25,085 bases of DNA, from the IMG/VR virus record IMGVR_UViG_3300043410_000771, positions 1 through 25,085 of that record; one strand, given 5' to 3'. This document shows positions 1 to 25,085 of the stretch, piece after piece. The position numbers were made by a program, and so were the translations under genes. The stretch's first letter is position 1. The number at the start of each line of letters is the position of its first letter. The DNA is from a virus. Below the pieces are notes generated by a model. It was not told the origin of the DNA. It saw only the letters and a list, made by a program, of their open reading frames with translations, and did not search any database.

Positions 1-368
1 CCTAAGTGAACACCGCTTTGAGCAACAGTGTTTAGTGATCTATTAACAGTAAGACCAGCTTCTGCAACTTGCCCGCCCATTTCGCCGAACGCACGGCCAA
101 CTGGACCAGCAACACCAGATAGTTGTTTAACGTTTGTTAATGCGTCATTAACACCGTACAACCCAGATGCAAACTTAGATGTTGCACCCAATGCGTTGCT
201 CATACCAGTAGAAGTTGCGCTAAGGATGTTGTTAATAGTAGAACCACCCGAACCAGAACTTCCGCCGCCGGATGGTGCAGAGTAACTACTTCCAATCATG
301 CTGTTATTGCGAGCAATACCCCTTGCTACAGCATCACCTAGCTTATCATAATCAATTGGGTCGTTCAT
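1..368 (-). CDS. Tail/baseplate structural protein, N-terminal fragment (possible tape measure)
   Basis: The reverse strand is open from an ATG at 368 to the window edge, giving about 122 residues with no stop. It begins MNDPIDYDKLGDAVARGIAR, followed by a Gly/Ser linker (residues ~27-43) and an Ala/Ser/Gly-rich helical stretch with many small residues. A GGA lies 7 bases before the ATG, and a late-type GATAAATA box lies 43 bases upstream. Neighbour: it is divergent from the gp26-like gene. The composition and its place next to a frameshifting assembly factor would suit a tape measure or hub protein, but no diagnostic motif is visible in this fragment, so the identity is inference. Gly/Ala/Ser-rich stretches of the same kind occur in the tube-cap and hub proteins further right. 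Confidence 0.6.
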   Translation of the reverse strand, partial: MNDPIDYDKLGDAVARGIARNNSMIGSSYSAPSGGGSSGSGGSTINNILSATSTGMSNALGATSKFASGLYGVNDALTNVKQLSGVAGPVGRAFGEMGGQVAEAGLTVNRSLNTVAQSGVHL

Positions 369-430: not shown

Positions 431-1255
431 ATGGCATCAAATCCACTACAGCAGTTTTTTAGACAACCTAAAATCTTTATTAGCTTACCTAGCTTAGGGA
501 TTTACAATACAACCAATATCTTTACAGGCGATGTAAGCCATTTGCCCGTTTACGGTATGACTGGCATGGACGAAATCTTAGTCAAAACTCCGGATGCTTT
601 ATTAGCCGGCGATAGCACAGTTAAAGTTATTACTAGCTGTATTCCTTCGATTACTGACCCATGGCAGCTTTCAACAATCGATTTAGACAGCATCTTAACT
701 GCTATTCGTATTGCAACATACGGCAATAGATTAGAGTTAGATAATACATGTCCAAAGTGCGGTACAGAACACGATTACGACTTTGATCTTTCAACATTTA
801 TTGAATACTATGCAACTTGTAAATTTGAAGATAAAGTTGTAACAGGTGATTTAACTATTAAACTTCGCCCACTAACGTACAGACAAAGTACAGATTTTAG
901 TATTCGTAATTTCCAATTACAACAGACACTAAAACAAATACAAGATTTAGAAGAAGCCGAGAAACGTTCAAAGTTAGCTGAAATCTACAGTCTACTTGCT
1001 GATCTACAAAATGATATTTTTGTTACAGGAATTGAATCTGTTAATACTGGATCCGAAACTGTTACCGAACGTGGATTTATTAAAGAGTGGGTTGAAAATT
1101 GTGACAGCACAATTTTAGAAGAAATTAGAAAACAAATTACTCACAACCAAGAAAAGTGGCGTAGCCCAGCACAAACTGTAGTTTGCGATAACTGCGGATA
1201 CGAGCAAGCAATTACAATTGCACTCGACCAATCAGATTTTTTCGTGCCAGCCTAA
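431..1255 (+). CDS. 26: gp26-like baseplate hub assembly protein (zero-frame product)
   Basis: A 274-residue protein that I place in the T4 gp26 baseplate hub family (about 208 residues in T4), which acts in assembly of the central tail hub. Two Cys-x2-Cys knuckles, C107/C110 (CPKC) and C252/C255 (CDNC), look like the halves of one split zinc ribbon; between them is a charged helical segment (~160-195). The start is the ATG at 431, with GGAG six to seven bases upstream and a late promoter before it. The last codons, GAT TTT TTC GTG CCA GCC TAA, contain a perfectly phased slippery heptamer, so a fraction of ribosomes probably continues in the -1 frame to give a longer protein. That arrangement recalls the G/GT tail assembly chaperones of lambda. 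The gp26 assignment is from remembered family features; no alignment was run. Confidence 0.8.
   Translation: MASNPLQQFFRQPKIFISLPSLGIYNTTNIFTGDVSHLPVYGMTGMDEILVKTPDALLAGDSTVKVITSCIPSITDPWQLSTIDLDSILTAIRIATYGNRLELDNTCPKCGTEHDYDFDLSTFIEYYATCKFEDKVVTGDLTIKLRPLTYRQSTDFSIRNFQLQQTLKQIQDLEEAEKRSKLAEIYSLLADLQNDIFVTGIESVNTGSETVTERGFIKEWVENCDSTILEEIRKQITHNQEKWRSPAQTVVCDNCGYEQAITIALDQSDFFVPA
1237..1243 (+). promoter_or_regulatory. -1 programmed frameshift slippery heptamer T TTT TTC
   Basis: Relative to the ATG at 431 the codons are GAT TTT TTC, so bases 1237-1243 form X XXY YYZ in the right phase (1238 is a codon start, 807 bases from 431). Slipping back one base re-pairs both tRNAs and enters the only open frame across 1256-1476. 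Confidence 0.8.
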
Positions 1256-1476
1256 TTAAATTATCCGCCTCGGAAATTGAAGAATATCTAGTTAGGCTAG
1301 AAACTGAAGTAAAAGATTTTAAAACTGAGTTAGTACGAATAAGTTGGTTCTTGCGAGGCGGAGTAACCTTAGAACAGTTACTACATATGTACTCTGCTGA
1401 CGATCGTCAAGTAATGTATGATGTAATTAAGGAAAACATTGAGCTAACTAAATCAGCTCAAATGCCGTTCTTGTAA
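1237..1476 (+). CDS. -1 frameshift extension of the gp26-like protein (predicted 348-residue fusion)
   Basis: From the slippery site the -1 frame runs 79 codons to TAA 1474-1476. After the shift it reads RASLIKLSASEIEEYLVRLE and ends KSAQMPFL: a short coiled-coil-like helix, then a helical domain containing MYSADDRQVMYDVIKENIEL. In this frame the nearest upstream stop is a TAA near 1190, and I find no ATG or GTG before the Met at ~1387, which would give only about 29 residues and has no evident ribosome site. It therefore lacks a plausible start and is best explained as a frameshifted C-terminus (residues ~272-348 of a fusion). Its stop abuts the stop of the convergent gene exactly (1476/1477), so the neighbour respects it as coding. 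It could correspond functionally to T4 gp51 or another small hub chaperone, but that is inference. Confidence 0.75.
   Translation, partial: FFRASLIKLSASEIEEYLVRLETEVKDFKTELVRISWFLRGGVTLEQLLHMYSADDRQVMYDVIKENIELTKSAQMPFL
1249..1298 (+). promoter_or_regulatory. Predicted frameshift-stimulating stem-loop
   Basis: AGCCTAATTA (1249-1258) pairs with TAGTTAGGCT (1289-1298): ten base pairs, including one G-U, around a 30-base loop. The spacer from the slippery heptamer is five bases (1244-1248), in the range typical for -1 stimulators. The 5' arm contains the zero-frame stop at 1253-1255. Confidence 0.65.
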
Positions 1477-2736: not shown

Positions 2737-3198
2737 TTAAACCGCTGATTGTGCCTTAGCTTGTTCTATTAGTGCCTGTCTCAAGGACGGTGATCCGCCT
2801 ACCCGTAAATTGATAATACCGTTATAGTAATCATCAGTTTCTAGTACCCTGCGGTCAAACTGTTCTCTAGCCTCTATATACGACATTTCTGCTTTTGTTT
2901 TGCAGAAATATAATATTTCTCTTGTAAAATGTTCTGCGCCTAGTGCCTGTATGTCTGCTGTTAGATTAGGACTTGACCCGTAATATTCTTTCCAATCACT
3001 GTCAATTAGTGTTCTAATCTTCTTTTTCTTTTTATTGCCGTTTTTAAGTTTTACAGTTTTTTGAGAAGTTTTTTGAAATTTTGCTAGTTTTTTGCCTATG
3101 TACTTACGATTGTTAGTAGTGTTTGTAATGATATACACGAAGCCTAAACAATCTTCTGGTAATGTTTCTATTACTGATCCTCGGTAAGTCCATGACAT
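2737..3198 (-). CDS. GIY-YIG family endonuclease
   Basis: A 153-residue protein with a GIY-YIG nuclease signature: GFVYIITN at residues 19-26 (Phe in the place of the usual Ile) and KYIGKK at 32-37, a Lys-rich insertion (~50-62), DWKEYYGSS at ~68-76, and YIEAREQF at ~107-114 holding the likely catalytic Glu. The family cuts DNA at one metal-dependent site. Small stand-alone members like this are common in T4-like phages as homing-type or putative endonucleases. It is the last gene of the minus operon, 15 bases after the preceding gene. No extra DNA-binding domain is visible, so target recognition is unknown. Next to it lies the structured region 2239-2736, which may or may not be related. Confidence 0.8.
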   Translation of the reverse strand: MSWTYRGSVIETLPEDCLGFVYIITNTTNNRKYIGKKLAKFQKTSQKTVKLKNGNKKKKKIRTLIDSDWKEYYGSSPNLTADIQALGAEHFTREILYFCKTKAEMSYIEAREQFDRRVLETDDYYNGIINLRVGGSPSLRQALIEQAKAQSAV

Positions 3199-15600: not shown

Positions 15601-16175
15601 ACCGTCAATGGTTAGCAGGTGCCATTTCTAAAGAACCATTACCTCCGGGATCTGATGAATTGCACGACATGCTTGCACCAAACTTAAATCTAATAAAATC
15701 AATTAGCGATGAAGTTGTATATCATCCTGTTAAGTACAAATTATTATTTGGTCCTTCTGCTGCTCCTGAGTTACAAGCAACATTTAAAGTAGTAAAAAAT
15801 TCAGGACAAGTTGTATCGGATAACGATATTAAATCGAGAATTATTGGTGCAATAAATCAATTCTTTTTATTAAACAATTGGGACTTTGGTGATACATTCT
15901 ATTTTACAGAATTATCAACATATGTTGTAACACAACTAAGCCCAGATATTTCAAACTTTGTTATAGTACCAAAGCAAAGCGGATTAAGTTTTGGTAGTTT
16001 ATTTGAAATTAAATCTGGAAATAATGAGCTATTCATTAGTAGCGCAACAGTTGACGATGTTGAAATTATATCTGGAATCACTGCAAGTTCTATTAAAGCA
16101 ATTGCTGGAACAACTACAACTACAAATGTGTCAAGTCAACAATCAATTACAAGTTCAAAATTCGGGAGTAACTAA
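12690..16175 (+). CDS. 6: Baseplate wedge protein gp6
   Basis: 1161 residues, starting at the ATG after AGGACAAATC. The N-terminal region (~20-115), with FETLRRTMIDYIRVNYPEDF and YLALIDLVAFLGQSISFRVD, LNARENFLELAERRDSVLRL and ARLISYNAKRN, is the gp6/gpJ wedge core. The C-terminal region (~1040-1130), with NWDFGDTFYFTELSTYVVTQ and SFGSLFEIKSGN, resembles the end of T4 gp6. T4 gp6 is 660 residues, so about 500 are extra, probably in the middle (~540-900), where the sequence is beta-rich and Ser/Thr-rich. gp6 forms the inner wedge ring connecting to gp25, gp53 and gp7. It is coupled to the next gene by TAATG at 16173-16177. Confidence 0.93.
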   Translation: MSVTTRQNRLLIAEDWKKIYQSFRNANFQSYDFETLRRTMIDYIRVNYPEDFNDYIESSEYLALIDLVAFLGQSISFRVDLNARENFLELAERRDSVLRLARLISYNAKRNTSASGLLKFNTISTTENVIDSNGRNLANQVIGWNDSSNSNWYDQFIKVMNASFPSIQQFGNPADSASIYGIPTQQYQFNSVSSGIPIFTFTKTVAGRSMNFEIVSTTFSGQSFIYEDAPKVGNQFKCVYRDDGHGASSPGTGFFVRFVQGTLNTGVFSVTQPSSNQSIDIDAQNINDTDVWLYKLDSNGIESGQWTSVSNFESNNVIYNSLNKNIRDIFAVLTRANDAVSLQFSDGTFGNLPLGSFRTYYRVSNGLSYTINTSDIRNVSFSIPYISQTNQVETLTINLNLATSVSNATVTETNASIKANAPATFYTQNRMITGEDYNISPLSANGLVSKIKAINRTSSGISRYFDLIDPTGKYSSTTLFADDGVIYLENYANQVNFTYNVRTDIEGIIYNTVFDILKRKNLRNFYYTNYINLISESLLNIEWVRVTEDSSSSTGYIKAIQAATVYPLGSYTITGLKYFTPGSLVKFTAPAGTYFNKLDSNSIVNGSATAFGSTTTLWAEVVSVVGDGTGVSSSGVAATGYGAVTLNQNIPEGAIITQIIPKWRTVIDTNTITTMIDLIFANKPFGLSYNASTQAWQLVFEVNLDATNPFSLSKQGDNSNQSQDASWMLLFTTDNITYTITSREQRYVFESDAQIRFYFDSSKKIYDSRSSSVVKDYINVLSINAQPTSSTNPGGTIPFTTDQKWDIISEFIGLDGYVDSKKLVVSFADEDDDGVVDDPETFLNIVNPSYLPSTKYIVLEKYLITVGQEDYRYVKNDSILGPVIIRDKKENVQYSEKVNGQYFYFTTTGVVMKYDATTGLFNASLDYKVYPGRDGLKFQYNHSADYDSRIDAGASNIIDIYVLTKTYDTNYRQWLAGAISKEPLPPGSDELHDMLAPNLNLIKSISDEVVYHPVKYKLLFGPSAAPELQATFKVVKNSGQVVSDNDIKSRIIGAINQFFLLNNWDFGDTFYFTELSTYVVTQLSPDISNFVIVPKQSGLSFGSLFEIKSGNNELFISSATVDDVEIISGITASSIKAIAGTTTTTNVSSQQSITSSKFGSN

Positions 16176-19100
16176 TGGCTGATAAAACAAATCCAAATTC
16201 ATCTAGCGGTAAAGGCTATGAATTTTTGCCAAAGATTTATCAATCAGATGCAAATAAAAAGTTTTTACAAGCAACAATTGATCAGCTAATTCAACCCGGT
16301 ACTGTTAATAAGATTAACGGATATATTGGTAGACAGTATGCAAAAGCAACAGTTGGTAAAGATGTCTTTATTAACGCTGCTACTCAAATGCGTCAGAATT
16401 ATCAGCTAGAGCCAGGATTAACAGTACAAGACACGTTAGGCAATACAACATTTTTTAAAGATTACCAAGATTATATTAATCAGTTAAACGTGTTTGGTGC
16501 CCCTACTGCTGATCATCAACGCATTAACAAACAAGAAATGTATAGCTGGGACCCGCACATTGATTGGGATAAATTTGTAAACTTTCAAAATTACTACTGG
16601 CTACCTTATGGCCCAGAACCTATTGTAATTTTTGGAGCTCAGGAAAAAATTACAAGCGAGTACAATATTACTATTGAATCCGAAGGTGACAATAATGTTT
16701 ATATTTTTGAACCTAATGCACTTGTAAGAAACCCGACAATTAAATTGTATAGAGGGCAAACTTACAAATTTAATATTAATAGTCCAGGCAATCCTTTTAG
16801 TATTAAAACACGCAGAACTCCATACGGACAAGATTTATATAATACTCCTGACATTGATAATCAAAGTGTAGAAGTTGGCTCAATTACTTTTACAGTGCCA
16901 TTTAGCGCACCTGATGTATTATTTTACATGAGTGAATCTGATAGCGACCTTGGTGGACTATTTCAAATTGAATCTATAGACACTAATACAGTTATAGACG
17001 TTAGCTCTGAAATTTTAGGAAAAGTTAATTACACATTAGCAGACGGTACAAAACTTAGCAACGGAATGAAGGTGCGATTTATTGGAACCGTTATTCCAGA
17101 ATCATATGCATCTGGTTTTTATTATGTAGAAGGTGTAGGAAGTTCAATTGAATTGGTCCCTGAGTCGATTCTTGAAATTGTAAGCGATTATACAAAGACT
17201 GAAAACGTTCAGTTTGACAGCACTCCGTTTGATGCTATGCCATGGGGTGAAGCAACTTCGTTTGCAGGAACAAGAGATTACATTGTTATTAACCGTTCTA
17301 GTCAAGATCACAACCCGTGGAGCCGTATTAATCGTTGGTTCCACAAAGATGTAATTGAAGCAAGTGCAAAATACAACAGCCAAGTACCTGCGTTAGACCA
17401 GTCGTCGAGAGCAGTTCGTCCAATTATCGAATTTGAAGCAAACGTTAAGTTATTCAATTTTGGAACAAGAGCTATTGCTGACGTAGATTTAATTGACAAT
17501 TTTACCAAAGATGTATTTTCGACAATTGAAGGTAGCTTAGGTTATAACGTTGATGGAATTCAATTAAGTCAAAACCAACGTGTGTTGTTTACTGCTGATA
17601 CTGATAGATTAGTTAAAAATAAAATTTATAAAGTAACATTTACTACAATACAAGGTCGTCGACAAATTCATTTAGAACTTGAATCAGAGCCGGTAGAGGG
17701 TAACACTGTACTAGTTAAGCAAGGAGTTTCGTCTCAAGGGCTAATGTACTGGTATGACGGATCAACTTGGCACTATGGTCAGCAAAAAACAAAATTAAAT
17801 CAAACACCGTATTTTGATATTTTTGACGATAACGGATATAGTGTTAGCAATACAGATGTCTATAATGGTTCTACATTTAGTGGGACTGCATTATTTTCTT
17901 ATAAAGTAGGAACAGGCACAGTTGATAGCAATTTAGGATTTGCATTATCACATAAAAATATTAACAACATTGGTGACATTGTTTTTAATTTTAATATTTT
18001 AAATGACACATACCAATATAAAACAATTAGCGAGGTTGTTACTAAAAGCACAAACATTGGTTATTTAAAGAAGACTAATGTCGATGGAACAACGTCATTT
18101 ATTAACGGATGGCAAAAGTGTCTGGCTACAACTACACAAGCAGCAGTTAGAATTTACAAAAATTCTAATCAAGTAAACAACTTTAACATTGATATTTTTG
18201 ATGATGTTAACAGTTTATCTGACTTAGTTGTAAAAGTTTATGTTAACGGTATTAGATTAGATAATACTAAATGGTCTATAGTTTCGGGAATAGTGTACAA
18301 ACGTATTGTGCTAGATTCTGATATTTCGACAGATGATGTCTTAACAATCAAAGCGTATGCATCACAACCGATTAACAAAAACGGTCATTATGAAATTCCT
18401 CCGATTTTACAAAATAACCCTCTAAATGAAGAGATATCAACTTTTACATTAGGTGAAGTAATTGATCATGTTGAGTCTATTGTAGAAAATATTAATGGAT
18501 TTTCTGGAAACTTTCCTGGCGCTGGAAATTTACGAGATTTAGGAAACGTTACACCGTATGGCGTTCGTTTTGTGCAACATAGCGGTCCTGCAAGTTTAAG
18601 CATATATCATATAACAAACGAAAATAACAACGTTGTTAAAGCTATTGAAAATGCTCGTGATGAATACGGCAAATTTAAAAGAAACTTTATTATTGTAGCA
18701 GAATCTTTAGGTATTGATTCTAACGCTGTATCACAAGTAGATTTAATTTTAGAAAAACTTAACAAAGATACACCAAACACTTCGCCGTTTTATTTTAGCG
18801 ATATGGTTCCGTATGGCGGCAAAATTAAAACTAATTTACATGTTGTTGATTACAGAATTAAAACATATCCACTAACTAACGTGTTTAGTATCGACGAACT
18901 TTCAAATAAAGCTGTTGGTGTTTATTTAAACAACGTACAATTATTAGTAAAGCGTCATTATACTTTTGACCCTCAGGGATTTATTGTCATTGATAGCAGT
19001 GTTGAACTAGCTAACGGCGATACTATTACTATTATTGAATATGATAATACTAATGGATGTTTTGTACCACAGACACCTACTAAGTTAGGTATTTGGCCAA

Positions 19101-22100
19101 AGTACGAACCTAAGATGTATTTGGATACAACGTTATTAGTTCCACAAAATGTTATTCAAGGCCACGATGGAAGTATTACACTTGCATATGGCGATTATCG
19201 TGATGATTTAATTATAGAATTAGAAAAAAGAATCTATAACAATATTAAAGTAACATACGATACAAGTATTTTTGACATTGACGATATTGTTCCTAACTAC
19301 AATAGAGCAACTGATTATTCTTTAGAAGAATTTAATATAGCACTATCATCTAGTTTCTATAAATGGTTACCGCTAGTTGATAAAGATTTTACAAAACATT
19401 TAAGTTACGATAGAAATAACCCAATGACTTTTAACTATAAAGGTCATGCAGCTCCGGATGGCAGAGAAACTCCCGGATATTGGAGAGGTGTATATCGTTG
19501 GATATTAGGAACTGACCGTCCTCATCTATGCCCATGGGAAATGTTAGGGTTTAGCGAAGAACCATCGTGGTGGACCTCAGTGTATGGGCCTGCTCCTTAT
19601 ACAAGTGACAATATTCCGTTGTGGACAGATTTATCTAACGGATTAGTTAGAGAGCCAGGCACTCCTGGCGTAGTATTGCCAAAATATATTAGAAAGTATT
19701 TGTTAAATCACATCCCAGTAGATGCTTCTGGAAATGTTCTTAGCCCGTTAATGTCTGGGTTATCTCAAGGCATTATTACAACATCTACTGATAGCAGTTT
19801 TACATTTGGCGATGTAAGCCCAGTAGAAGCAGCGTGGAGAAGAAGCAGTTACTATCCTTTTGCAGTGTTGTTAACTTCTATGTTATTGCAACCAGCTAAG
19901 ACATTTGGATTATTGTTAGATAGATCAAGAATTATCAGAAATGTTACTGGACAACTAGTTTATAAAGATACAAACTTACGAGTAACACCGAAAGATATCG
20001 TATTACCTAGCATCTACTTGAGCCAAGCATTTGTTCAAACAGCTGGTATTATAAATTATATTGTTGATTATATTTTAAGTGATAATTTAAAATCTTATAA
20101 TTCATATCTATACGATTTGAATAATATTGAAGCAAAACTAAGCTACCGTGTTGGTGCATTTACTAGCAAAGAAAAATTTAATTTATTATTAGATAGTAAA
20201 ACACCGTTAAGCCAAGGTAGTGTATTTGTACCCCAAGAAGACTATTCAATTATTCTTAATTCATCTAGTCCTATTAAGAAGATTACATACAGTGCAGTAA
20301 TTGTTACAAAGTTTGCTGATGGATATAGTGTAACTGGGTACAGTTTAACTGAGCCGTATTTTAAATATTATCCTTGGACACAGTCTGGCGTATCAATTAA
20401 CGTTGGCGGAATTTCGGAATCATATGCTATATGGACTCCCGGATATCAATATGCCGCAGGTAAAATTGTTGAGTACAACAAAAAATATTATAGATCGTTA
20501 TCATTACATACAACAACCGCAACATTTGATCCTACAAACTATCAAGTGTTGGGAGCATTACCAATCATTGGCGGTAGAGATGCAATTTTAAGAAAAACAT
20601 GGGATCGCACAGATCCTATTGTAATCCCATACGGAACTAAATTTAGTTCAACCCAAGAAATAGTTGATTTCTTACAAGGATACGGGGAGTATCTAAAAGA
20701 TCAAGGATTTATCTTTGATAATTTTAACAACACATTAAATGTAGTTTCTAATTGGGAAACCAGTGCTAAAGAATTTTTATTCTGGACAACACAAAACTGG
20801 TCTAGCGGCCAAGACAAGTGGAAAGAATGGACTCCAAATCAACACGTTAATTACGGTGAAATTGTTAGATACAACGGAGAGTATTACAGATCTAGCCAAG
20901 ATAACGTTCCTACAACACTGTTTGATTCAACAGCATATGTTAAGTTAGAAGGTTTAAGTACTGTTGGAAGTTCAGTAATATCATTAAGCCCAAGTGCTAC
21001 AAATATTACATTTAAAACACCACTATCTGTTGTTGATAATATTAATAATCCTTTTAACAATTATGAAATATTTAAAGTTGATGGAACTCCCCTTGCTTCT
21101 AACTTTTTAAATTCTTACAGAGAAGAAAATGCAGTTAGTTACACACCTAGAGATGACTACGGTATTTTTGGTGCAAGTTTCTACTTAATTCAGCAAGAAC
21201 AAGTTGTTCTTATCAATAACACAACAATTTTTAATGATACAATTTACAATCCTGCTAGCGGGTATCGCCAAGAAAGAATTAAAGTTGCCGGCTATGTAAG
21301 TACTGATTGGTATGGTGGATTTGATGTTCCTGGATTTATATTTGACCAAGCTGTAATTCAAAATTGGGAACCATGGCAAGATTATGCGCTTGGCGATATT
21401 GTTAAGTATAAAGAATTTTATTACAGCGCAGGATCGTTTGTCCCAGGTGCTGAAACTTTTGACGCAACTAAATGGATTAAAGACACTGACAAACCAACTC
21501 AAACTTTACTACCAAACTGGACATACAGAGCTGGGCAGTTTATGGATTTTTACAGTTTAGACAGTGATAATTTTGACTCGTCTCAACAGCAATTAGCACA
21601 GCACTTAGTTGGATATCAAAAACGTCAATACCTTTCAAACATTATTAAAGATGATGTTAGTGAATTTAAATTCTATCAAGGTATGATTGCTGAAAAAGGA
21701 ACACAGAACGTTCTTAATAAATTGTTTGATGTATTAAGTGCAGCAGACCAATCAAGTTTGTCATTCTACGAAGAGTGGGCATTAAGATTAAGCCAATACG
21801 GTTCTACAGCGGCATTTGAGAATATTGAATTTAATTTAGACGAGTCTCTATTCAAAGCAAATCCTCAAGGAATTGAATTAGTACAAACTGTTGACAATGC
21901 ATTAGTAGACTTTATCATTCGTCAAACACCTAATGATGTTTACTTAAAACCTTTAGGTTACAATAATGCACCGTGGCCTGTAATTGATAAATTTAAACCT
22001 TATCTAAGAACACCGGGGTATGTTCGTTCAGACGATGTTACTGCAACATTGGCATCGCTTGAAGATATATTAACACAAGATGTTTCATTGTTTAGTGAAG

Positions 22101-25085
22101 GAAGTTACATTTGGTGTGCATTTGACAATCCTCCTCATTTTTGGAATGTTTATAGATTAACTAATGACAATTTAACAGTTACTGATGCTGCGTATGCAGG
22201 TACAACATTAACTATAACTTGCAGCAATACTATCACATACAATGTAGGTGATTACATTGCTATCAAGGGTGTTCAAAAATTTAGTAACTTTTATAAAATT
22301 ATAAACGTTGACACAAATTCTTTTGATGTCACGGCAACAATTAGCGGTTGGGAACCATTTGCTGAACAAAGCACAATTCAAATATTTTCTATTAACACAC
22401 AAAGAGTTGGTAGAATTGACGATGCGCAAACAATCCTACCATTAACATTAACCGAAAACGAGATTATTTGGACTGACGACAATGGCTCGGGAAAATGGAC
22501 TGTTTGGCAACATAACAACATTTACTCTAAATCTGAACTTTCGAATTCTATACCGCAAGATGGATTGCTATATGGCAGACAGGTTCTTGTTAACAAGTCT
22601 AATTCAATATCTATCCTGTCAAACAGTTTAGGCGAAATTATTGTTTACGATAAGGCAACCTCACTATCGCCTTGGATCCAACGTCAGATTATTGTACCGC
22701 CGTTTATTTCTGCTACTGACATAAATGGCAACCCAACATCTGACACTGAAACTGGTGATGTTATTGCACTGTCATCTAATAGTGTTTGGTTTGCGTCAGG
22801 AGTTCCGACAGCATCACAGGCTGTAACTATATCAAATACTAATTTAAACATTGTTGACAGTACTGGTACAACTAGCGGGTTTGATAATCAAGGTGTTGTT
22901 ACTATCTATAAAAAGGATAACAACAATATTTTCACTCCAGAATATACTATAGCAAGTCCTAACCCAGACAATGATGAAATGTTTGGATCCTCTTTAGTAT
23001 TCGGAGATAACAGATTATTTGTTACAGCATCTGGTTCTAATCAAATTTATCAATTAGAATATGTAACTGCAACTCAAGCTACAGCATCTTACAACCCAGT
23101 TGGCAGTTCAGAGTATACTGTAAAGATTTCTGTGTTAAGCGGAACAATTACAGAAGGAATGACAGTAGTTGGTGACGGATTTACCAGCGGACAAACAGTT
23201 GTACAAGTTGTTGATTCAAACACAATTATTATAAGCAGTTTACCTGACAGCACACCGTCTGGTGTTTTACAGTTTACATTAACTTATTGGCAGTACACAA
23301 ATAATGTACTTACTCCGGCTGTGCCTGATACAGCATTTGGAGAAAAGTTAGTAATGAGTGATGACAATTCGACATTATTTGTTACTAGCCCAACTGTAAA
23401 TCGAACTTATTACTATTCAAATAATTCAGGCACATATGATTATGTAGGTTATATAACCGGAAGCTCGGATATATGTGTGTCTTCTGATGCAACATATGTT
23501 GCAGTATCGGATATTTCTTACAATTCTGGAAGAGGAAAAGTTACAGTCTACGTTAATACTGGTTCGGGGTATGAAGAATACCAGCCAATCTTAAACGATC
23601 AAGGTGAAGCTAATGATTACTTTGGATCTAAAATTAGATTCATGAATAACTTCCAAACACTTGTAATTTTTAGTGAAACTTCTAATAACGTTGGCAGAAT
23701 TAGTACATATGATAGATACTCATTAAAATGGGTATATGGTGACACAATAACAAACCCATCTAATGATGCTGATGGATTTGGTTCTAGTTTTAGTGTAGGT
23801 AACAACATTATTTTTGTTAGTGCTCCTAGTGCAGATGATCAAGGAGTTATGTCTGGAAAAGTTTACACATTTGTTAAATCTGCAAATGCATTGAGCTGGA
23901 AAGTATTACACGAACAGATCGATAAACCAGATGTTACAAAAATTAAACAAGCATTCTTATACAATAAGCAAACTAATCAGTTAGTTACTTACTTAGATGT
24001 TATAGATCCAACACAAGGAAAAATTCCTGGAATTGCTGAAGAAGAATTAAAATACAAAACATTTTATGATCCAGCAGTTTATTCTGTTGGTACAGATGCA
24101 GTTAATGTTGATGATGGCATTGCTTGGTCCGCAGCCCAAGTTGGAACACTGTGGTGGGATTTAAGAACTGCTAAATTTATCGATAGTTCTGACAATGATG
24201 TTGTATATAGAAACAGTACTTGGAATACTTTATTCCCAGGTGCAAGTATTGATGTGTATGAATGGGTGAGCTCTACTATGCTTCCATCTGCATGGAATAC
24301 ATTAGCAGATACTGAAGAAGGTCTAGCAGTAGGTATAAGCGGCACAACACTTTATGATGATACTGTTTACAGTATTACTAAACGTTATGATAATGTTTCT
24401 AAAACATTTAAGAGAACGTATTACTATTGGGTTAAAAACAAAGTTACTTTACCTAATTTAAAAAATAGAAATATTACAGCTAAGGATGTTGCTGCATTAA
24501 TCGAAAACCCAAGAGGTCAAGGTTACAGATATATTGCATTAACTAGCGCAAATAGTTTTAGTCTAGTTAACGTTAAGCCTTTATTAAACGATGTTAATAT
24601 TGTACTATCTATTGAATACTGGACTGTTGATAGCGATACTAGAAATATTCACACAGAGTGGAAATTAGTTAGCAACGATGTTGAGTCAGCATTACCGGCA
24701 AGTATTGAACAAAAGTGGTTTGATAGCTTGTGTGGAAAAGACAGTTCGGGTAGAATAGTTCCTGATACTACTCTGCCTATTAAGCTGCGTTATGGCATTG
24801 AAAACAGACCACGTCAAGGTATTTTTGTTAATCGCTTTGAAGCATTAAAACAATTAATTGAACAAGTTAACAGAGTTTTAATTAAAAATCAAATTTCCGA
24901 AAATCGTGATTTAAGTCTTCTTGGTGTATATGACTCTGAGCCTAATGTTATTAAAGGCTTATATGATGCAACACTTGATACTGATGCTGAATTAAAATTT
25001 GCAGTTATTAGTACATTTGTAAAACCGTCTTTATCTCCAGTAATTACAGATGGTAAAATTACAGGTGTTGATATTATTAATAAAG
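16175..25085 (+). CDS. Giant modular baseplate protein at gp7 position (partial)
   Basis: The frame is open from the ATG at 16175 to the window edge: 2970 codons and no stop. The N-terminus (1-150), with YEFLPKIYQSDANKKFLQAT and SWDPHIDWDKFVNFQNYYWL then PYGPEP, resembles large structural proteins of marine T4-like phages that follow gp6. The next ~1250 residues are beta-rich, with a Trp/Tyr-rich segment near ~1095-1160. Three chitin-binding-like modules start at W1420, W1552 and W1731 (W-x-P ... Y-x2-G-x-I-V-x-Y-x4-Y-Y). A beta-propeller-like section at ~2170-2580 has FG-GAP-like motifs at F2270, F2388, F2483 and F2535, the last reading GFGSSFSVGNNIIFVSAP. T4 gp7 has 1032 residues, so this is at least threefold longer and probably a wedge protein with added surface-binding parts. 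The stop lies beyond 25085. Confidence 0.75.
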   Translation, partial: MADKTNPNSSSGKGYEFLPKIYQSDANKKFLQATIDQLIQPGTVNKINGYIGRQYAKATVGKDVFINAATQMRQNYQLEPGLTVQDTLGNTTFFKDYQDYINQLNVFGAPTADHQRINKQEMYSWDPHIDWDKFVNFQNYYWLPYGPEPIVIFGAQEKITSEYNITIESEGDNNVYIFEPNALVRNPTIKLYRGQTYKFNINSPGNPFSIKTRRTPYGQDLYNTPDIDNQSVEVGSITFTVPFSAPDVLFYMSESDSDLGGLFQIESIDTNTVIDVSSEILGKVNYTLADGTKLSNGMKVRFIGTVIPESYASGFYYVEGVGSSIELVPESILEIVSDYTKTENVQFDSTPFDAMPWGEATSFAGTRDYIVINRSSQDHNPWSRINRWFHKDVIEASAKYNSQVPALDQSSRAVRPIIEFEANVKLFNFGTRAIADVDLIDNFTKDVFSTIEGSLGYNVDGIQLSQNQRVLFTADTDRLVKNKIYKVTFTTIQGRRQIHLELESEPVEGNTVLVKQGVSSQGLMYWYDGSTWHYGQQKTKLNQTPYFDIFDDNGYSVSNTDVYNGSTFSGTALFSYKVGTGTVDSNLGFALSHKNINNIGDIVFNFNILNDTYQYKTISEVVTKSTNIGYLKKTNVDGTTSFINGWQKCLATTTQAAVRIYKNSNQVNNFNIDIFDDVNSLSDLVVKVYVNGIRLDNTKWSIVSGIVYKRIVLDSDISTDDVLTIKAYASQPINKNGHYEIPPILQNNPLNEEISTFTLGEVIDHVESIVENINGFSGNFPGAGNLRDLGNVTPYGVRFVQHSGPASLSIYHITNENNNVVKAIENARDEYGKFKRNFIIVAESLGIDSNAVSQVDLILEKLNKDTPNTSPFYFSDMVPYGGKIKTNLHVVDYRIKTYPLTNVFSIDELSNKAVGVYLNNVQLLVKRHYTFDPQGFIVIDSSVELANGDTITIIEYDNTNGCFVPQTPTKLGIWPKYEPKMYLDTTLLVPQNVIQGHDGSITLAYGDYRDDLIIELEKRIYNNIKVTYDTSIFDIDDIVPNYNRATDYSLEEFNIALSSSFYKWLPLVDKDFTKHLSYDRNNPMTFNYKGHAAPDGRETPGYWRGVYRWILGTDRPHLCPWEMLGFSEEPSWWTSVYGPAPYTSDNIPLWTDLSNGLVREPGTPGVVLPKYIRKYLLNHIPVDASGNVLSPLMSGLSQGIITTSTDSSFTFGDVSPVEAAWRRSSYYPFAVLLTSMLLQPAKTFGLLLDRSRIIRNVTGQLVYKDTNLRVTPKDIVLPSIYLSQAFVQTAGIINYIVDYILSDNLKSYNSYLYDLNNIEAKLSYRVGAFTSKEKFNLLLDSKTPLSQGSVFVPQEDYSIILNSSSPIKKITYSAVIVTKFADGYSVTGYSLTEPYFKYYPWTQSGVSINVGGISESYAIWTPGYQYAAGKIVEYNKKYYRSLSLHTTTATFDPTNYQVLGALPIIGGRDAILRKTWDRTDPIVIPYGTKFSSTQEIVDFLQGYGEYLKDQGFIFDNFNNTLNVVSNWETSAKEFLFWTTQNWSSGQDKWKEWTPNQHVNYGEIVRYNGEYYRSSQDNVPTTLFDSTAYVKLEGLSTVGSSVISLSPSATNITFKTPLSVVDNINNPFNNYEIFKVDGTPLASNFLNSYREENAVSYTPRDDYGIFGASFYLIQQEQVVLINNTTIFNDTIYNPASGYRQERIKVAGYVSTDWYGGFDVPGFIFDQAVIQNWEPWQDYALGDIVKYKEFYYSAGSFVPGAETFDATKWIKDTDKPTQTLLPNWTYRAGQFMDFYSLDSDNFDSSQQQLAQHLVGYQKRQYLSNIIKDDVSEFKFYQGMIAEKGTQNVLNKLFDVLSAADQSSLSFYEEWALRLSQYGSTAAFENIEFNLDESLFKANPQGIELVQTVDNALVDFIIRQTPNDVYLKPLGYNNAPWPVIDKFKPYLRTPGYVRSDDVTATLASLEDILTQDVSLFSEGSYIWCAFDNPPHFWNVYRLTNDNLTVTDAAYAGTTLTITCSNTITYNVGDYIAIKGVQKFSNFYKIINVDTNSFDVTATISGWEPFAEQSTIQIFSINTQRVGRIDDAQTILPLTLTENEIIWTDDNGSGKWTVWQHNNIYSKSELSNSIPQDGLLYGRQVLVNKSNSISILSNSLGEIIVYDKATSLSPWIQRQIIVPPFISATDINGNPTSDTETGDVIALSSNSVWFASGVPTASQAVTISNTNLNIVDSTGTTSGFDNQGVVTIYKKDNNNIFTPEYTIASPNPDNDEMFGSSLVFGDNRLFVTASGSNQIYQLEYVTATQATASYNPVGSSEYTVKISVLSGTITEGMTVVGDGFTSGQTVVQVVDSNTIIISSLPDSTPSGVLQFTLTYWQYTNNVLTPAVPDTAFGEKLVMSDDNSTLFVTSPTVNRTYYYSNNSGTYDYVGYITGSSDICVSSDATYVAVSDISYNSGRGKVTVYVNTGSGYEEYQPILNDQGEANDYFGSKIRFMNNFQTLVIFSETSNNVGRISTYDRYSLKWVYGDTITNPSNDADGFGSSFSVGNNIIFVSAPSADDQGVMSGKVYTFVKSANALSWKVLHEQIDKPDVTKIKQAFLYNKQTNQLVTYLDVIDPTQGKIPGIAEEELKYKTFYDPAVYSVGTDAVNVDDGIAWSAAQVGTLWWDLRTAKFIDSSDNDVVYRNSTWNTLFPGASIDVYEWVSSTMLPSAWNTLADTEEGLAVGISGTTLYDDTVYSITKRYDNVSKTFKRTYYYWVKNKVTLPNLKNRNITAKDVAALIENPRGQGYRYIALTSANSFSLVNVKPLLNDVNIVLSIEYWTVDSDTRNIHTEWKLVSNDVESALPASIEQKWFDSLCGKDSSGRIVPDTTLPIKLRYGIENRPRQGIFVNRFEALKQLIEQVNRVLIKNQISENRDLSLLGVYDSEPNVIKGLYDATLDTDAELKFAVISTFVKPSLSPVITDGKITGVDIINK

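Follow-up and report, generated by a model that had tools for sequence, protein, structure and literature searches.

Results

A predicted -1 frameshift site at the end of a gp26-like gene

Positions 431-1476 of IMG/VR virus record IMGVR_UViG_3300043410_000771 (positions 1-25,085, the whole stretch analysed, here termed the window) very probably constitute a single gene for tail assembly chaperones of the T4 gp26/gp51 family, in which a -1 ribosomal slip gives the long form. The 0-frame gene extends from ATG 431 to TAA 1253-1255 on the + strand and encodes 274 aa. Its final codons are GAT TTT TTC GTG CCA GCC TAA, with GAT at 1235, TTT at 1238 and TTC at 1241. The heptamer T_TTT_TTC (1237-1243), located 9 nt before the 0-frame stop, has the X_XXY_YYZ form and is in exact phase for tandem -1 slippage, as proposed in the initial annotation of this DNA. 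The -1 frame opens at 1192, upstream of the heptamer as is inevitable for such an overlap, and runs to the stop at 1474-1476. Counted from the heptamer it has 79 codons, and the predicted slip product has 348 aa. The earliest ATG, GTG or TTG in the -1 frame is TTG 1351, and none of its start codons has a ribosome site. The stop of the convergent gene starts at 1477 and abuts the -1 stop. The initial annotation was thus correct both in finding no usable start in the -1 frame and in describing its end as coinciding with that of the convergent gene. The features of the locus are as follows.

3..368, - strand: divergent upstream neighbour, N-terminal part (runs off the contig), candidate tape measure protein (conserved position; identity inferred)
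431..1255, + strand: 0-frame gene for the 274-aa short form (TAC-N), gp26-like, with two CxxC zinc-ribbon pairs (PF12322, phrog_150, AlphaFold, BFVD)
1237..1243, + strand: slippery heptamer T_TTT_TTC in 0-frame phase (sequence; invariant in 84 distinct related sequences; also in jumbo phages and cyanophages)
1237..1476, + strand: -1 segment of 79 codons plus stop, putative C-terminal extension (TAC-C) in the long form (pN/pS, AlphaFold)
1250..1260, + strand: stem 5' arm GCCTAATTAAA, 6 nt past the heptamer, proposed to be stimulatory (RNAalifold, -12.8 kcal/mol; covariation)
1253..1255, + strand: 0-frame stop TAA, within the hairpin 5' arm (sequence)
1287..1297, + strand: stem 3' arm TCTAGTTAGGC, with a 26-nt loop between the arms (RNAalifold, covariation, AGG codon bias)

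Three further observations were made elsewhere in the window. Rfam RF01718 (Polynucleobacter-1 RNA) matched 2601-2737 on the - strand with 109 bits (cut-off 37), which hints at a freshwater host. A homing-endonuclease-like gene (2737-3198, - strand) adjoins gp46/gp47-like SbcC/SbcD genes, and an open frame on the + strand (16175-25084) encodes at least 2970 aa and runs off the contig end.

The gene product belongs to the gp26/gp51 family

The short form matched PF12322 (T4_baseplate) with E=9.1e-19 and 68.4 bits (curated cut-off 24.5), and phrog_150 (baseplate hub) with E=1.4e-18. Its AlphaFold model had a pLDDT of 86, and the BFVD matches were models of T4-like baseplate hub assembly proteins. 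These findings support membership of the predicted product in the T4 gp26/gp51 family (PF12322), as implied by the earlier designation gp26-like. The PDB fold search with the short form returned common helical arrangements only, and no chaperone match. The -1 extension had a confident predicted fold of four helices (pLDDT 90). The fold search with the extension gave weak matches only; the best were small phage proteins, and gp51 of phage ZZ1 was a very weak match.

Comparison of a single-profile HMM of the fusion or the tail with T4 gp26/gp51 was unconvincing, and whole-family profile-profile comparison was needed. A fusion profile joined with jumbo phages aligned end to end with a profile of gp51 and cyanophage proteins (E=1.7e-6, a single comparison). 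The -1 tail fell on the gp51 extension in register; the tail alone gave E=0.012, which is not significant.

The heptamer and the -1 frame are conserved

A search with the 348-aa product as query revealed 80 IMG/VR contigs, nearly all matched across both frames. One of them, L052, has a stop inside its 0-frame gp26-like gene, far upstream of the heptamer, and was excluded from the counts of this search. In the remaining 79 loci and the window, an in-phase T_TTT_TTC precedes a G, and the 0-frame stop is close behind; the gap between heptamer and stop is 9 nt in most loci and 3 nt in a few variants. The fusion search represented 56 distinct regions. Because the fusion query was biased toward contigs that retain the extension, a second search used only a short-form alignment as query. 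Again, 80 of 80 relatives had the heptamer in phase and a -1 ORF, which had exactly 79 codons in 78 of them. The two sets overlap; combined, they comprise 84 distinct 78-nt regions, and TTTTTTCG was present in all 84.

pN/pS was 0.354 in the -1 frame, versus 1.0 and 1.47 when the same DNA was read in the other two frames. Judged from this substitution pattern, the -1 frame is protein-coding and under purifying selection. The conservation of the heptamer and the constraint on the -1 frame in orthologous loci, named in the initial annotation as a check of the proposal, were thus both found. The second Phe codon at the slippery site was TTC in 58 of 58 cases, versus 86 of 542 Phe codons in the rest of these genes; the codon before the Phe pair always ended in T. 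The residues FFR are invariant, and the conserved -1 coding region begins at the heptamer itself. The match between heptamer and -1 ORF evidently goes far beyond chance.

These data bear on the possibility that a small gene of its own occupies the -1 frame, translated by termination-reinitiation or from an internal start after the gp26-like gene. A -1-frame ATG adjoins or overlaps the 0-frame stop in Atu_ph07, Phosso and PBECO4, and the Phosso and PBECO4 loci are annotated as two genes; however, all three loci retain the heptamer. The first start codon is at codon 39 in 39 of 60 distinct ORFs of the window clade, but in all 60 distinct -1 ORFs the earliest start codon counted from the heptamer lacked an SD-like motif. 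Orthologues encoding this region from a separate start with a ribosome site, regarded in the initial annotation as the case against frameshifting, were found only as the full-length paralogue gp51 of T4. An independent gene would also be at odds with conserved coding that begins at the heptamer, and would leave the invariant in-phase heptamer and the hairpin described below unexplained. We consider it very improbable.

A covarying hairpin follows the heptamer

An 11-bp stem was predicted between 1250-1260 and 1287-1297, with a 26-nt loop, beginning 6 nt after the heptamer. The window's own stem has one mismatch, at the tenth pair. Across the 56 distinct sequences, pairing was retained in 95.8% of stem cells, and five pairs showed double changes. 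Double-changed cells numbered 44, versus 14.9+-4.0 in shuffles; the shuffle counts ignore relatedness, so this comparison gives no probability. The stem is still supported by slid-partner controls, in which pairing fell to 13-56%. Arg codons in the 3' arm were AGG in 52 of 52 Arg cases; in the 0-frame genes, AGG accounted for 13 of 449 Arg codons. The stem position is within the range of 5-9 nt downstream used for stimulatory RNA structures, which are common but not universal at such sites. We infer that the stem stimulates -1 slippage. Several distant phages have a predicted stem 5-9 nt after the heptamer with different sequences (single folds only).

Two additional structures were considered. 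For a pseudoknot between the hairpin loop and its flanks, the best candidate was present in only 36% of sequences, and an additional stem within the loop in only 13%; both were rejected.

RNA polymerase slippage on the six-T run, yielding mRNA with an altered number of U that encodes the fusion, has the homopolymer itself in its favour. However, six T is short for bacterial transcriptional slippage, and such a mechanism needs no codon phase, no invariant C and no downstream hairpin at ribosomal spacing. It is a very unlikely source of the fusion. An assembly error or a decayed gene, broken by loss of one base, has nothing in its favour, although one contig by itself would be compatible with it; it is refuted by the identical one-base offset in 80 of 80 contigs and in isolated phage genomes, and can be dismissed for practical purposes.

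Distribution in isolated phages

The gp26-like gene ends in an in-phase T_TTT_TTC with a -1 ORF in Atu_ph07, RaK2, Phosso, PA5oct, PBECO4 and SCTP-2, and likewise in BF, 7t3, CBB, Hallingskeid and cyanophages S-RIM8 and S-RS29; RaK2, PBECO4, Atu_ph07 and PA5oct are among the jumbo phages of this set. XacN1 has the variant heptamer T_TTT_TTT. The two cyanophages (Kyanoviridae) share with the window the in-phase heptamer, a -1 extension directly before the stop, and a hairpin predicted 5-9 nt downstream; they differ from it by low sequence identity, and their records list the -1 part as a separate gene. In cyanophage loci L095 (3115-3252) and L096 (2621-2758), an annotated 45-aa 'baseplate hub assembly catalyst' corresponds to the end of the gp26 -1 extension. 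In Bacillus phage SP-15 (L102, 1477-2416) a similar extension lies in the +1 frame and TTTTTTC is out of -1 phase; a +1 frameshift is possible there.

Whole-record searches with PF12322 revealed one copy in each genome of the frameshift type where the profile matched, and likewise in each related contig. SCTP-2 was below detection by the profile, and its locus was found by tblastn. The window is a 25-kb fragment. T4 and all seven other Straboviridae tested had two copies, short gp26 and long gp51; the Straboviridae were selected as gp51 matches, so this is a contrast between groups and not a random sample. In T4, which has PF12322 in common with the window, gp26 has 208 aa, gp51 has 249 aa with a C-terminal extension, and the end of gene 26 has no slippery heptamer; the window instead has one gene with a predicted -1 slip. 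Because one PF12322 gene is present in frameshift-type genomes and two in T4-type genomes, the frameshift and the second gene look, from these gene contents, like alternative routes to short and long tail assembly chaperones.

Discussion

The heptamer and its phase, the coding character of the -1 frame, the covarying hairpin and the contrast of one versus two gene copies are evident from sequence comparison. In the mechanism that we propose, most ribosomes would end at TAA 1253-1255 and produce the gp26-like short form of 274 aa (TAC-N). A minority would slip -1 at U_UUU_UUC, aided by the hairpin at 1250-1297, and produce the 348-aa long form (TAC-NC) carrying the helical C-terminal extension. 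That a minority of ribosomes slip, that both proteins are made and that they act as chaperones is what these features suggest. A 348-residue fusion of this kind had been predicted in the initial annotation with lambda G/GT as the parallel, and the conserved heptamer, phase, -1 ORF and covarying hairpin argue strongly for it.

The tail assembly chaperones lambda G/GT and P2 E+E' are among the closest known systems, and the function of the window proteins is assigned by analogy. On the lambda gpG/gpGT model (Atkins et al. 2016, PMC5009743), the short form may coat the tape measure protein, with the long form recruiting tail tube subunits. The divergent neighbour of the window gene has a conserved position in relatives, where it mostly has 650-830 aa. 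Family searches with the neighbour gave no tape measure family match and no informative family match; in RaK2, the annotation of this neighbour gives similarity to a tape measure. Position and size suggest that the divergent neighbour may be the tape measure protein.

Frameshifting in T4-like tail chaperones was already described in 2022. Vladimirov, Gautam and Davidson (Virology 2022) reportedly identified gp26 and gp51 as tail assembly chaperones of T4-like phages, and their abstract is said to state that frameshifting is conserved in several T4-like groups and that T4 uses genes 26 and 51. A later paper (PMC12846349, citing Vladimirov 2022) credits that study with poly-T -1 signals that T4-like phages carry in their TAC-N genes. 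The earlier view that no signal of this kind had been described in T4-type gp26 does not hold. Another paper states that some T4-like phages have a short gene and a long gene in place of the frameshift (PMC10885494, citing Vladimirov 2022). In the TAC locus of Vandenendeviridae/Andersonviridae, as presented for phage Adele in the excerpt of PMC12846349, -1 frameshifting takes place at the poly-T site GTTTTT and is followed by a -1 extension of >200 bp; unlike the window, no hairpin is described in that excerpt. Our searches of open-access papers turned up neither the covarying hairpin nor jumbo phages in this connection. Possibly new are the hairpin with its covariation, the clade of uncultured phages and the reach into jumbo phages.

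The heptamer and the hairpin form a compact signal that is testable in E. coli. The findings also call for a correction of annotations: the public jumbo phage and cyanophage records examined give the short form, and the extension is omitted or listed as a gene of its own, hypothetical or 'hub assembly catalyst'. Hairpin-stimulated -1 frameshifting may be widespread and perhaps ancestral in T4-like phages including jumbo phages, with a second, longer copy swapped in by Straboviridae; we offer this scenario tentatively, as a little less probable than its opposite. One gene with a predicted slip in some phages, and two genes without it in others, supports T4 gp26/gp51 as the equivalent of lambda G/GT.
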